From the NCBI GenBank assembly GCA_015520115.1, contig WAQS01000240.1, forward strand, positions 1 through 6,267: DNA of 6,267 nucleotides. The letters are read 5' to 3'. A program made the translations under genes and the position numbers. The notes under the pieces are model-generated. The model worked only from the letters and a program-made list of their open reading frames with translations. It was not told the origin of the DNA and searched no databases. Within the stretch, counting starts at the first letter, position 1, and each line of letters begins with the position of its first letter. Shown one piece after another: positions 2,233-5,853 of this stretch. The stretch comes from Ferroglobus sp. (GTDB lineage: Archaea > Halobacteriota > Archaeoglobi > Archaeoglobales > Archaeoglobaceae).

Positions 2233-2571
2233 TCAGATTTTAACTGCTCCTCTCAATTCCTCGATCTTCCTCTCAAAAGCTTTCTCTGCTTCTTCATAAA
2301 TTTCAAGAAGTTTCTCAGCCAACTCCGTTAAAGAGCTCTCCCCTCCCTTTTCACCACCTCTTTTGGTCTCGACTATTCTATTTCCGAGTTTTTCCTCCAT
2401 CTTTTTTATGTACCCCCAGACATATCTGTAAGACATCTCCAGCTCTTTCGAAGCTTTAGATATGCTACCGTGCTTTTTTATCGCTTTTAGAATTTCCGCT
2501 CCCCCTTTTCCCATCAAAAACTCTCCATCCTTTTCTATCCATATCCTGAACTTGAGTTCAATAATAGGCAT
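2233..2571 (-). CDS. ModE-type winged helix-turn-helix regulator without oxyanion-binding domain
   Basis: This 112-residue protein matches the N-terminal DNA-binding half of the molybdate/tungstate regulator ModE. Residues 22-34 (GKGGAEILKAIKK) and 35-62 (HGSISKASKELEMSYRYVWG and on) form the LysR-like helix-turn-helix. The glycine-rich stretch GGEKGGESS (72-80) before LTE is the typical ModE wing. Residues 83-107 form a charged helix, probably for dimerisation. E. coli ModE has about 260 residues with C-terminal TOBE/Mop domains that bind molybdate or tungstate; none are present here. Metal sensing must therefore be absent, indirect, or supplied by another protein. I chose ATG 2571 over the in-frame GTG codons at 2577 and 2574; either choice overlaps the end of tupC. 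Its place as fourth gene of the tungstate cluster suggests that it autoregulates the operon through the palindrome at 4867-4884. That role is inference. Confidence 0.88.
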   Translation of the reverse strand: MPIIELKFRIWIEKDGEFLMGKGGAEILKAIKKHGSISKASKELEMSYRYVWGYIKKMEEKLGNRIVETKRGGEKGGESSLTELAEKLLEIYEEAEKAFERKIEELRGAVKI

Positions 2572-3247
2572 CACCACTCACGAACTTCTTAGTCAATTCA
2601 TTTTTAGGATTCTCAAAAATTTGTTTCGTTTCTCCGTACTCTATCAGCTTTCCGTTGTGGAGAAAGGCAACTTTATCCGATAGTCTCTTAGCCTGAAAGA
2701 TGTTGTGAGTGGCTATTACTATCGTTTTTCCTGATTTTGCGAGGTCTCTGATGCATTTCTCAACTATAGATGCGTTTTCGGCGTCAAGGTTTGAAGTGGG
2801 CTCGTCGAAGAGGTAAACTTCTCTTTCGATTGCCAAAGCTCTCGCTATAGCGAGTCTCTGCTTTTCCCCTCCGCTTAAATTCTTAGCCTTCTTCTTCGCA
2901 ACCTCAAGGAGGTTCAATTTCTCTAAAATTTCTTCAGCTTTCTCTTTACTCGAATTGCCGTCTAAGGATAAAGCGTAGAGCAAGTTGTCTAAAACAGTGC
3001 CTCTAAAAACGACTGGCTGCTGAAAAACCATCGTAATCTTCTTCCTGTGCTTTTCACTTGCCTCTTCTCCCATGAAGTAGTACTCTCCTTCAAAACTTTC
3101 AAGCAAAGCTATAATTCTCAGAAGCGTGGTTTTTCCAGCTCCGCTGCTCCCTAAAATGGCAGTAATTCCTCTCTCTATCTCCATGCTCAAGCTTAGCTTG
3201 AATTGTCCGTAATCCTTGACTACATTTCTGAGCTCTATCACAGCCAT
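2558..3247 (-). CDS. tupC: Tungstate ABC transporter, ATP-binding protein TupC
   Basis: This 229-residue ABC ATPase powers the importer from the cytoplasmic face. All motifs are intact: Walker A GSSGAGKTT (33-41), Q-loop MVFQQP (73-78), signature LSGGEKQRLAIARAL (124-138), Walker B VYLFDEPTSNLD (144-155) with catalytic Glu149, and the switch histidine His181 in IATHN. The length is that of a bare ATPase domain, without the C-terminal TOBE regulatory domain found in ModC and WtpC; this fits the Tup type. I chose ATG 3247 rather than the ATG eight codons upstream at 3271. GGTGA stands four bases before 3247, and residues from 3247 begin with the usual strand MAVIELRNV. It overlaps the end of tupB by 10 bp and the start of the ModE-like gene by 14 bp, which suggests translational coupling. 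Confidence 0.93.
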   Translation of the reverse strand: MAVIELRNVVKDYGQFKLSLSMEIERGITAILGSSGAGKTTLLRIIALLESFEGEYYFMGEEASEKHRKKITMVFQQPVVFRGTVLDNLLYALSLDGNSSKEKAEEILEKLNLLEVAKKKAKNLSGGEKQRLAIARALAIEREVYLFDEPTSNLDAENASIVEKCIRDLAKSGKTIVIATHNIFQAKRLSDKVAFLHNGKLIEYGETKQIFENPKNELTKKFVSGDAYY

Positions 3248-3915
3248 TTTTTCACCAAGTTCATTATCCATGAGATCGCAAAAACTACCGATAGGAGGAT
3301 TAGCCCGAGGACTATCGCAACGTCTATCTCTCCCCTCGCCACGTGCATTTGGATTGCGGTAGTTAAAACCCTTGTGTTTGCTAAGCCTCCGTAAACGAAC
3401 ACGTTTCCACCGATCATGAGAGCTATTCCCAACTCAGCCACTGCTCTGTTGAATGCGGCTATGGAGGAGAGGACGATTCCCGGAAGAGCTTCACTTATAA
3501 CTTTGACGACAGCCTGAGCTCTTGAGGCTCCGAGAGTTAAGGCGAGCTCGTATATTTCTTCACTTACCTGCTCAATTGAGGTGGCGGTTATACTTACAAC
3601 TATGGGCAGAACAAGGAGCATCTGTCCCAAGCTTATTCCCATTTCAGTGTAGAGCAGTCCGAGGAAGCCGAAAGGTCCTTTTGGGGCTAAGAGTAGGTAG
3701 AGAAATAAACCCATTACGACCGTCGGGATTCCAAGGAGGGTGTTGAATATCGATTTTAAGAATTCTCTGCCGGTGAAGTTGTATAAAGAAAGGAGAACTC
3801 CCACCGGTATCCCAATTGTGGAAGCAAGTATCGCAGCCAGACCCGAGACTTTTAGAGATCTGAGGGTTATTTCGGCAACGATTCCCCAGTCCAAGTCACC
3901 AAAAAGCGATACCAT
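3238..3915 (-). CDS. tupB: Tungstate ABC transporter, permease TupB
   Basis: This is a 225-residue integral membrane protein of the BPD permease family, forming the channel of the tungstate importer, probably as a homodimer. Hydrophobic segments lie at about 22-45, 56-78, 92-113, 146-170 and 198-222. The cytoplasmic EAA loop that docks on TupC is seen at 120-139, with EIYELALTLGASRAQ. The motif GIPTVVMGL (62-70) is typical of TupB-like permeases. An in-frame ATG exists at 3954, but ATG 3915 is preferred. It is preceded by GAGG with a short three-base gap, and its overlap with the end of tupA is only 20 bp instead of 59. The gene lies between tupA and tupC in the order usual for tup operons. 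Confidence 0.92.
   Translation of the reverse strand: MVSLFGDLDWGIVAEITLRSLKVSGLAAILASTIGIPVGVLLSLYNFTGREFLKSIFNTLLGIPTVVMGLFLYLLLAPKGPFGFLGLLYTEMGISLGQMLLVLPIVVSITATSIEQVSEEIYELALTLGASRAQAVVKVISEALPGIVLSSIAAFNRAVAELGIALMIGGNVFVYGGLANTRVLTTAIQMHVARGEIDVAIVLGLILLSVVFAISWIMNLVKKWL
3252..3256 (-). promoter_or_regulatory. Ribosome binding site of tupC
   Basis: GGTGA on the minus strand lies four bases before ATG 3247. It decides between the two possible tupC starts and sits inside the last codons of tupB. Confidence 0.7.
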
Positions 3916-4867
3916 ATTCCTCAGCTCTGTATCTATACTCCTTGGGGCACTCACTCCCGTTTATGAATCCGTACTTAGCGATCCAGCTGTAGTAGGGCTC
4001 TATTTTCTTCTCCAGAACTTCCACAGCCGGATAGAAGAGAGGCATGCCGAATTCGTCTCTTCCAAAACCTCTAAGAACCTCTTGTCCATCAGTTACGAGC
4101 CACTTCTCAAATTTCATAGCCAAATCGAAGTTCTCGTTACCCTTCTCCGGGTTTACAACTATTATCGAGTAGACGTTTATTAACTCCTCTCCCCTATCAA
4201 CGAGAATTTCTAAGTCTATTTTTCCGGCTCTCTTAAATCTCAGGTATGTTCCGGTATCTGAGAGTGTGTAGGCTTTTTCGTTGCTTGCGTAAAGCAAAGT
4301 CTGACCCATCCCAGCTCCAGTTTCTCTAAACCATTTCTCCTTTCTTATTTCCTCGTAATCGAAACCGGCGGCTTTCCATAAAGCTATTTCTTTAACATTC
4401 GTCCCCGACAGATCTCCCCTCGAAACCCATATGGCTTTTCCTTCTCTTCCAGCTTCCGCTATCTTTTTCATAGCGTCAACGACACTCGAACCCCTAATTT
4501 TTGCCGGATCATCTTTTGGACCAACTATTACGAAGAAGTTGTAGGCGAAGATTTTTCTGTTCACTCCGTAACCTTCTCTCATAAACTCTTCCTCCTTACT
4601 CTTCGCATGAACGAGTATTGCATCGCTAACCCCAAGCTTTGCATCGTTTATAGCTGCCCCAGTCCCCTTAGCTATGAAATGCACTTCAATCCCGTATTTC
4701 TCCTTAAAGATCCTCGCAACCTCGTCAAGAAAGCCCGTGTCGTATAAACTTGTGGTGGTCGAAATCGTCAAGATTTTCAGTTCTTTCCTCTTATTCTGCT
4801 CGTAAAAGTAAAGTCCAAAGGTTATTACCAAAATCGCCAAGGCTAAAATTACTATCTTTCGAGCCAT
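3896..4867 (-). CDS. tupA: Tungstate-binding protein TupA, membrane-anchored
   Basis: This 323-residue extracytoplasmic solute-binding protein captures tungstate for TupBC. The key sign is STTTSLYDTGFLD (36-48): the TTTS signature marks TupA and separates it from ModA and WtpA. GTGAAINDAKLGVSDAILVHA (68-88), SRGDLSGTN (149-157) and GAGMGQTLLYASNE (184-197) are further conserved TupA stretches that line the oxyanion site. The N-terminus (MARK then a hydrophobic run, residues 5-22) has no lipobox cysteine, so it is probably an uncleaved membrane anchor. Two further in-frame ATGs lie upstream at 4879 and 4873. ATG 4867 is preferred because it sits about 25 bases from the centre of the TATA box, which predicts a leaderless transcript, and because the others lie inside a palindrome. 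Tungstate would supply tungstopterin enzymes such as aldehyde:ferredoxin oxidoreductases; that is family knowledge, as none is in the window. Confidence 0.93.
   Translation of the reverse strand: MARKIVILALAILVITFGLYFYEQNKRKELKILTISTTTSLYDTGFLDEVARIFKEKYGIEVHFIAKGTGAAINDAKLGVSDAILVHAKSKEEEFMREGYGVNRKIFAYNFFVIVGPKDDPAKIRGSSVVDAMKKIAEAGREGKAIWVSRGDLSGTNVKEIALWKAAGFDYEEIRKEKWFRETGAGMGQTLLYASNEKAYTLSDTGTYLRFKRAGKIDLEILVDRGEELINVYSIIVVNPEKGNENFDLAMKFEKWLVTDGQEVLRGFGRDEFGMPLFYPAVEVLEKKIEPYYSWIAKYGFINGSECPKEYRYRAEEYGIAFW
3919..3922 (-). promoter_or_regulatory. Ribosome binding site of tupB
   Basis: GAGG on the minus strand lies three bases before ATG 3915, inside the end of tupA. The spacing is tight, but no comparable site precedes the longer start at 3954. 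Confidence 0.5.
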
Positions 4868-4884
4868 ATGCATGTACATGCATA
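4867..4884. promoter_or_regulatory. Perfect 18-bp palindrome, probable operator of the tup operon
   Basis: TATGCATGTACATGCATA reads the same on both strands, with its centre between 4875 and 4876. It fills the space between the tupA TATA box and the tupA start codon and takes in the A of ATG 4867. A dimer bound here would cover the transcription start. The natural candidate is the ModE-type protein encoded in the same operon. The palindrome is directly seen; the binding partner is inference. Confidence 0.7.
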
Positions 4885-4887
4885 ACG

Positions 4888-4895
4888 AATATAAA
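4888..4895 (-). promoter_or_regulatory. Archaeal TATA box of the tup operon
   Basis: TTTATATT on the minus strand, preceded by the A-rich stretch ACAAAAACAA that could serve as BRE. Its centre lies about 25 bases from ATG 4867, the distance expected for a leaderless archaeal transcript. Confidence 0.65.
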
Positions 4896-5196
4896 TTGTT
4901 TTTGTTGGGAACGATTTCAGAATTACTTTTTCTTTCTTCGAAAACCCTTAAACTTTACCCTCTTAGAATATATTTTAACCAATTTTGATGAAGCTCAAGG
5001 AAATAATGAAAAGCTCAACCTCTTTGAAAGAGAGTTCCAAACGACATCAGAATCCTTGGCATAGCTACCTACATCCAGACGTCCCCCAATAAGAAACCCT
5101 GTTAAATACCTGGAAATTTTCGCAAGCCGTTCATAGCTTTATTACAATCATCTAGAGTGGTTGAGTTGTCAGCCTCCTCAGATCCTTAGCGCAATA
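4896..5196. other. Divergent intergenic region between tupA and vapB
   Basis: About 300 bases without a convincing intact gene. The left third is A/T-rich and belongs to the tup promoter. The middle carries the decayed coding stretch at 4988-5136. For 5137-5190 I see only short open frames and no clear element. Confidence 0.6.
4988..5136 (+). pseudogene. Small decayed coding stretch of unknown origin
   Basis: ATG 4988 opens a 34-codon frame that ends at TAA 5090-5092 and contains NPWHSYLHPDVP. At the run of five C's (5083-5087) a change of frame lets the protein continue as PIRNPVKYLEIFASRS to TAG 5134-5136. The two pieces join smoothly as one protein-like text, which suggests the N-terminal remnant of a frameshifted gene. 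A TATA-like AATATATTT at 4967-4975 lies just upstream. I do not recognise the family with certainty. A transposase N-terminus is one guess, given the surrounding decay, but no terminal repeats or downstream domain were found. It could also be a short chance frame. Confidence 0.3.
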
Positions 5197-5216: not shown

Positions 5217-5234
5217 GTGGGAAATGTGGGAACA
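5217..5234 (+). repeat. Tandem 9-bp repeat before vapB start
   Basis: GTGGGAAAT is followed at once by GTGGGAACA, two units with seven identical leading bases, between the TATA box and the vapB ATG. It covers the predicted transcription start. It could be a binding site for the antitoxin or provide the GGG of a weak ribosome site; either role is inference. Confidence 0.4.
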
Positions 5235-5488
5235 TGCCCCTAACAAAGGTCGACGAAAAGGGGAGAATTCTGCTACCTAAGGAAATAAGAGAGAAGTTGA
5301 ACATAAAACCGGGAGATGAGTTCTTGGTTGCTGACGTAGACAAAGATGCGGTCGTACTAAAGAGGATAGATGTCAGAAAGATGTTAGAGAGTCTAATCGA
5401 GAAAGCTAAGAGCGTGGATCTCGAAAAACTTGAAGAAGAGATAGAGAGGGAAGGTAATAGAGTTGCGAGGAAAAAGCTTTTTGATTGA
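5234..5488 (+). CDS. vapB: AbrB/SpoVT-type antitoxin (VapB)
   Basis: This intact 84-residue protein begins with a classic SpoVT-AbrB swapped-hairpin DNA-binding domain (residues 3-45), with the core KVDEKGRILLPKEIREKL and NIKPGDEFLV. Residues 47-84 form a charged helical tail (VRKMLESLIEKAKSVDLEKL and on), the part that in VapB proteins wraps and inhibits the PIN toxin. It would act as cytoplasmic antitoxin and as repressor of its own promoter. Its stop at 5486-5488 overlaps the start of the PIN gene, the usual coupled vapBC arrangement. That toxin is broken, so this gene now stands as an orphan antitoxin. It may still silence its own promoter or neutralise related toxins elsewhere. Confidence 0.88.
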   Translation: MPLTKVDEKGRILLPKEIREKLNIKPGDEFLVADVDKDAVVLKRIDVRKMLESLIEKAKSVDLEKLEEEIEREGNRVARKKLFD

Positions 5489-5853
5489 TACGAACGTTTT
5501 CATAGCGGCAGTAAAAAAGGGATAGACGAAGACGACGGATCTAGTTCTGTACTTGTTAACGAACCCGGAGTTTGAGATAGTGGCTAACGATGTTCTCATT
5601 GCGGAGTACAAAAATACGCGAAGGAGCTGAACGCTGAGGATTTTCTCGAATTCTTAAAGATTAGAGTTTTAGCGTATTCAACCTCTCAAAGGACGAAATT
5701 GAAAAGTGCAAACGATATTTTCCGGAAGAGGAAGCTGCCGACGTAATTCATGCAGCAACCTGCCTAAAAACGAGTGCTTTGACGAGATCAAGAGAGCTGG
5801 CCTGATAGAAGTGTGGAGAATTTTCGGAAGCTATTGATAGACTGCTCGATTAG
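5463..5853 (+). pseudogene. vapC: PIN-domain toxin VapC, degraded
   Basis: A PIN ribonuclease can be read only by changing frame repeatedly. From TTG 5463 the text holds LIDTNVFIAAVKKG with the first catalytic Asp, then meets TAG 5523-5525 (perhaps a former TGG). It continues as TKTTDLVLYLLTNPEFEIVA to about 5612. One base is missing in the A-run 5610-5614; the next frame gives YAKELNAEDFLEFLKIRVLA. Another base is missing at about 5675, followed by FNLSKDEIEKCKRYFPEEEA and then ADVIHAATCLKTSA, which carries the later conserved Asp. Here the expected strand and TNDxxF-like motif are deleted. FDEIKRAGLIEVWRI follows from 5778, then one extra T near 5823, and SEAIDRLLD ends at TAG 5853. With one stop, four frame breaks and a lost motif it cannot make an active toxin. 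The start is uncertain, because the gene overlaps vapB. Confidence 0.85.

Follow-up and report, generated by a model that had tools for sequence, protein, structure and literature searches.

A predicted ModE-type operator before the TupABC-like operon of a Ferroglobus species, as one site of a predicted tungsten regulon in the Archaeoglobales

What controls the tungstate-type transporter operon of a Ferroglobus species, and through which protein? The question is raised by a window of 6,267 nucleotides (the whole stretch of DNA that was analysed), in which TATGCATGTACATGCATA, fully self-complementary over 18 bp, occupies positions 4867-4884 beside the promoter of the operon. An earlier note had reported this perfect palindrome, together with a TATA box at 4888-4895 and a tupA ATG at 4867, and each was found at its place with the palindrome exact in sequence. 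The features of the locus are as follows.

4896..4901, minus strand: BRE-like hexamer AAACAA, predicted by consensus only
4888..4895, minus strand: TATA-like box TTTATATT, abutting the 24-bp box; best BRE-TATA match, score 20 of 21 on our own scale
4864..4887, minus strand: 24-bp ModE-type box CGTTATGCATGTACATGCATATGG, predicted operator; 1 mismatch to the order-wide consensus; same place in 15 readable family relatives
4867..4884, no strand: perfect 18-bp palindrome, inner part of the box (sequence, shuffles, genome scan)
3896..4867, minus strand: tupA-like tungstate-binding protein gene from ATG 4867, predicted leaderless; NF041772 TupA 174 bits (cut-off 400), PF12849 128.6 bits
3238..3954, minus strand: tupB-like permease gene; NF041773 TupB 140 bits (cut-off 320), NF038017 ABC permease 183 bits, above cut-off
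2558..3271, minus strand: tupC-like ABC ATPase gene; PF00005, no TOBE by Pfam
2233..2571, minus strand: ModE-like winged-helix protein, DNA-binding domain only, 112 residues from ATG 2571, overlapping the end of tupC; TIGR00637 92.9 bits (cut-off 98.5)

The predicted operon runs in the order tupA-tupB-tupC-modE with overlapping frames. As the equivalog scores for TupA and TupB both lie below their cut-offs and the first gene product matched no NCBIfam model but TupA, the transporter is named TupABC-like, and we infer its specificity for tungstate. The TATA box upstream of tupA is centred at about 4891.5. Archaeal transcription generally starts 26-27 nt from the TATA box, which predicts a start near 4865, and the tupA ATG at 4867 would thus be leaderless. 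Two more in-frame ATGs of tupA, at 4873 and 4879, lie within the palindrome.

The symmetry of the palindrome by itself is mildly unusual at most. It is the sole perfect palindrome of at least 16 bp in the window, and no second copy of it was found at up to 3 mismatches either elsewhere in the window or in the draft genome to which the window belongs (1.65 Mb, about 91% complete); likewise, 200 shuffles of the window gave no match at that tolerance. A first-order Markov model, however, predicts about 0.04 perfect 18-bp palindromes for a window of this length and about 12 for the genome. The interest of the element therefore rests on its place and its conservation.

To what extent, then, is the element conserved before tupA? 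Genes similar to tupA are present in 17 of the 55 genomes of the family, the window's own included, and the DNA upstream of them is readable in 16 (the own genome and 15 relatives), with only 21 bp available in genome G032. The exact 18-mer occurs in the own genome alone among the 57 genomes of the order, and a version within 2 mismatches precedes tupA only in G029, so the exact palindrome was rejected as the conserved unit. Conservation was found instead in a 24-bp box (4864-4887 in the window) with the ends CGWTATG and CATAWCG, a variable centre and the consensus CGWTATGNA-N8-CATAWCG. This box, at up to 1 mismatch, lies just upstream of or overlaps the tupA start in all 16 readable genomes. 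Furthermore, the best BRE-TATA match abuts it at 15 of the 16 loci, the two centres being 15-18 bp apart; G010 has a better-scoring match further up. The centre of the box differs by species, reading CGTTATGAACGTTCATGCATATGG in the congener G023, where the counterpart of the palindrome is a different and imperfect sequence. Since the centre varies in this way, the symmetry is incidental, and the comparison indicates that its perfection is a local accident inside a conserved dyad. The earlier note had taken the 18-bp palindrome to be the element; it stands as the inner part of the box, while the unit kept upstream of tupA extends over 24 bp.

The distribution and layout of the box point to the ModE-like protein of the same operon. 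Of the 57 genomes of the order, 41 encode a close ModE-like protein, defined by a cut at E 1e-23 and found at E 9.4e-24 or better; seven others have matches at E 2.5e-19 and weaker, and nine have none. The box is present in 39 of the 41 genomes with a close ModE-like protein compared to 2 of the 16 without (Fisher p 1.7e-9, uncorrected for kinship and incomplete genomes, and with the cut set after the list had been seen). The two ModE-bearing genomes without a box at up to 1 mismatch are G016, which is 72% complete, and G032, with its 21 bp of readable tupA upstream DNA. By coordinates, 18 of the 41 genomes have modE on the strand of the box, no more than about 3 kb downstream of it and behind tup or wtp genes; in G033, modE and tupA are on different contigs.

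The E. coli ModE consensus is given as ATCGNTATATA-N6-TATATANCGAT in the available text of PMC545781. The spacing of the archaeal box, CGNTAT-N12-ATANCG, is that of this consensus, and 9 of the 10 core positions match. Scored against the full consensus, the site in the window reaches 13 of 22, as does an unrelated place at 3955, and the 64 promoters compared below score from 11 to 17; the full-consensus scan of the window was rejected as non-discriminating. The link to ModE therefore rests on the core geometry and the co-occurrence. One of the seven weaker ModE-like matches, that in G024 (L188, 3455-4507), is a helix-turn-helix fused to a PBP-like domain and divergent from wtpABC-like genes, in a genome with no ModE-type box at up to 1 mismatch; this locus resembles the TaoR-type layout as far as it is described in the available part of PMC11980592.

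The regulator itself is a short protein. Its 112 residues were predicted to form a winged helix whose last element is a single long helix (model pLDDT 90). Among sequence relatives with solved structures, the nearest is 2ijl of Agrobacterium (E 1.7e-10), and E. coli ModE (1b9m/1o7l) follows at E 3.8e-7; the best fold match of the model is 1b9m (E 1.3e-6), with LysR-type DNA-binding domains from 3.1e-5. Its score against TIGR00637, the ModE domain, is just under the cut-off. No TOBE/Mop molybdate-binding domain was found in it by Pfam, alignment or the predicted model, and it is for this reason called ModE-like rather than a full ModE. The regulator of the operon had been described as a ModE-type winged-helix protein, which applies to its DNA-binding domain but not to a ligand-binding domain, which is absent; because of this absence, a tungstate-responsive repressor is not established. 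Metal sensing would have to be the work of a partner or of the small domain, unless there is none and the operon is under plain autorepression.

Genomes of the order were also searched for the sensor domain. The complete genome of the congener G023 yielded no TOBE domain at E 0.001, and the window's genome a single weak one, in a separate protein that is an ABC ATPase by eye (G000:C39). This ATPase was rejected as the missing sensor. Beside it (L191, 259-2115) is a second binding protein, ModA-like by eye, and no box was found upstream of the ModA-like and ATPase genes on this contig. In the order as a whole, 30 ModE-like matches that were read, together with the TOBE search, showed three forms. 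First, the DNA-binding domain stands alone in G000, G023, G033 and others. Second, in several genera (for example L029, L030, L039 and L041) it is followed by some 35 further residues containing G-x-V and G-D-x-V, possibly a reduced sensor; profile comparison of this tail with TOBE gave a probability of 26% over 14 columns. Third, it is joined in the same frame to a true TOBE in G026-G031, G055 and G056. Genomes with each of the three forms carry the same box.

The box is not confined to tupA. At up to 1 mismatch, it was found at 72 unique places in 41 of the 57 genomes of the order, and its pattern gave 110 strand hits compared to 14 for a reversed control pattern. Molybdenum or tungsten genes follow at 63 of the 72 places: tupA at 18, wtpA at 20, modA at 2, aldehyde ferredoxin oxidoreductase (AOR) at 19, fwdD at 3 and moeA at 1. 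These assignments were made from the gene starting just downstream, with family models run on one representative of each kind and the others placed by visible similarity; the WtpA, ModA and MoeA-type representatives scored above a cut-off and those of TupA, FwdD and AOR below theirs. The nine remaining places are inside modE of G005, in G011:C14, in G019:C26 (two in tandem), in G022:C153, at G035:C28:3140, in G052, in G053 and in G055:C28. The tandem boxes of G019:C26 (L159), at 2511 and 2543, lie 32 bp from each other, and no gene is evident downstream of them; the box hit of G029:C25 falls within a coding frame.

The reach of the box is narrower in the Ferroglobus lineage. Within 1 mismatch, G000, G023 and G033 have no box besides that of tupA. 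With 2 mismatches allowed, the further hits in these genomes are about as many as the reversed-pattern control gives, and a wider regulon in the own genome at this tolerance was rejected; one of these hits, in G033:C191, has the box pattern on both strands. The earlier note had suggested that wtpA, modA and tungstoenzyme upstream regions be compared as well. In this comparison, which was run in part, boxes were found before wtpA and modA but not before most AOR genes: 3 of the 22 AOR genes checked (23 were found, in five genomes) have a candidate box, at 1 mismatch in G001, 3 in G000 and 4 in G023, and those without one include five genes of G026, three of G033 and others among the 22. The degenerate boxes of G000 and G023 precede one AOR gene in each genome and also lie upstream of its TATA box; the related gene of G033 has no such box.

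The position of the box relative to the promoter differs between transporter and enzyme genes. A fixed BRE-TATA consensus of our own choice was scored around the box in 64 promoters, comprising 40 of transporter genes (tupA 18, wtpA 20, modA 2) and 24 of enzyme genes (aor/aor2 21, fwdD 3); those of wtpA and modA and all but two of the enzyme promoters were gathered through box hits, and the presence of the box there is a matter of selection. Orthologous promoters in the set are non-independent. All 40 transporter promoters have their best BRE-TATA match upstream of the box, and in 37 of them the two centres are 15-18 bp apart; in G010, G038 and G041, the best match differs from the one adjoining the box. 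In this arrangement, the box fills the space between TATA and the predicted start, and a repressor bound there would keep RNA polymerase out. In the enzyme promoters, whose spacing is loose, the best match is downstream of the box centre in 19 of 24, at 14-46 bp, and the match at 14 bp, in G003, overlaps the box. The exceptions are a zero distance in G037 and an upstream match at four aor genes, in G002, G005, G010 and G020.

The available parts of PMC7830388 and PMC6737238 describe CopR and TK0271, respectively, as archaeal activators with palindromic sites directly upstream of BRE/TATA, which is where most aor and fwdD boxes lie; both are named there as other regulators, not ModE, and activation in the present case is a prediction. 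E. coli ModE, according to the available text of PMC11980592, represses modABCD and activates moaABCED. The mirrored geometries, the site position of the archaeal activators and the dual role of E. coli ModE together suggest that one regulator would repress uptake and may activate the enzymes. Activation is proposed less surely than repression, and a box that touches the BRE could also repress.

Taken together, these observations make it very probable that the palindrome is the core of the tupA box, a likely operator where the ModE-like protein of the same operon, bound as a dimer, would block tupABC-modE transcription. The dimer of the protein encoded at 2233-2571 would bind 4864-4887, the bound dimer would exclude TFB or RNA polymerase and thus turn the operon off, and binding would follow cellular tungstate or molybdate. 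Since the predicted operon ends with modE, the regulator would in this way repress its own gene as well. At the tungstoenzyme genes of relatives, where the box lies upstream of TATA, the same protein could activate instead. The operator idea of the earlier note gains support from the conservation of the tupA box and its co-occurrence with the ModE-like protein. In place of the compact circuit of operator, transporter and repressor that it proposed, the predicted operator is one site of a predicted order-wide tungsten and molybdenum regulon.

A broader proposal, which we put forward tentatively and with slightly more doubt than confidence, is a two-way tungsten switch made of one box and a sensor-less ModE. 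On the start-site side of TATA the box would turn uptake off, upstream of BRE/TATA it would turn tungstoenzymes on, and the sign would be set by position alone; the Ferroglobus regulator would have lost its sensor and would govern almost only its own transporter operon. The simplest reading of the Ferroglobus lineage may be that a once broader metal-sensing regulator is now mainly an autorepressor, with sensing lost or moved to a partner.

Three other explanations of the element were weighed. The box might be the operator of another factor that co-occurs with ModE-like proteins, such as an XRE-like regulator divergent from tupA, and G009 (L153), G011 (L154) and G031 (L155) do have a gene, XRE-type by eye, that starts next to the box on the opposite strand. 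However, such a gene was seen at these three of the loci read and not at the others, whereas the box tracks the ModE-like protein across the order and fits the spacing of the ModE consensus, which makes this explanation distinctly unlikely. Still less probable is an mRNA hairpin that hides the start codon. The palindrome overlaps the possible upstream ATGs at 4873 and 4879, but TATA abuts it, and by the usual archaeal spacing transcription would start at its far end and leave it untranscribed; furthermore, 19 of the 24 enzyme promoters have the box on the upstream side of their best TATA match, and an RNA element in the window was rejected because no Rfam family matches the window at gathering scores. 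A chance palindrome built from repeated ATGCAT units, for which the dozen or so expected per genome would speak, is the least credible of all, since all 15 readable relatives have a related element, with a diverged centre, in the corresponding position.

Compared to characterized ModE systems, the predicted Ferroglobus operator shows several likenesses and differences. First, it shares with the E. coli ModE box of modABC repression both the spacing, as given in the available text of PMC545781, and the place at a molybdate/tungstate transporter gene; the inner half-site is TATATA in E. coli and TATGYAT-like here. Unlike in E. coli, the regulator has no molybdate-binding domains, and the target is a tungstate-type operon with an archaeal TATA/BRE promoter. 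Second, the same text describes a Desulfovibrio ModE that likewise consists of the DNA-binding domain, whose sensing mechanism its authors call unclear; the box predicted there is a different inverted repeat, while the classical spacing is kept here. Third, in Geobacter metallireducens, as described in the available part of PMC2700814, ModE is split and has also lost a domain, and the lineage keeps some predicted boxes; there, the DNA-binding domain was lost, the metal-binding part kept and the boxes are decaying, whereas here the loss is the reverse and the tup box is kept.

For Archaea, the abstract of a study by Studholme and Pau reportedly treats methanogens. By its title, that study (Studholme and Pau 2003, BMC Microbiol 3:24) deals with archaeal ModE boxes, and the available text of PMC9765008 states that ModE controls modABC in Methanosarcinales. 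Our literature searches, with most subscription papers beyond reach, found no paper joining ModE boxes with Archaeoglobales, and the tungsten regulon of this order, the mirrored promoter geometry and the missing sensor look new. An isolated palindrome leads to a predicted tungsten regulon in an order of hyperthermophiles, in which a bacterial-type regulator and box are tied to archaeal TATA promoters in two mirrored geometries. It also raises the question of how a ModE without a metal-binding domain gauges cellular tungstate, for which relatives with and without the sensor on the same box provide a natural comparison.

The box was also sought beyond the order. In a phylum sample of 196 genomes, the exact pattern occurs in 27 (12 of this order and 15 outside) and the reversed control in none. 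The 15 outside genomes have 16 places, which precede modA-like or wtpA-like genes at 11, Nif3-like genes at 4 and one other gene, which we take to be FmdE-like with no model confirming it; models were run on 100-residue starts at five of the 11 and one of the four, and one modA match was weak (E 0.00037). The exact boxes before the Nif3-like gene (TIGR00486 for one representative) are all in one family (L197-L200; G105, G093, G085 and G142), an unexpected member of the regulon.

Two neighbours of the operon complete the window. A penicillin amidase family gene (PF01804; 2-2194, minus strand) directly follows the tup-modE operon on the same strand, with no box before it within 2 mismatches. On the other side, at 5234-5488 on the plus strand, is an AbrB/MazE-type antitoxin-like gene (PF04014, TIGR01439), and the frames that follow it, at about 5460-5840, resemble a broken PIN-type toxin, judging by a motif seen by eye.
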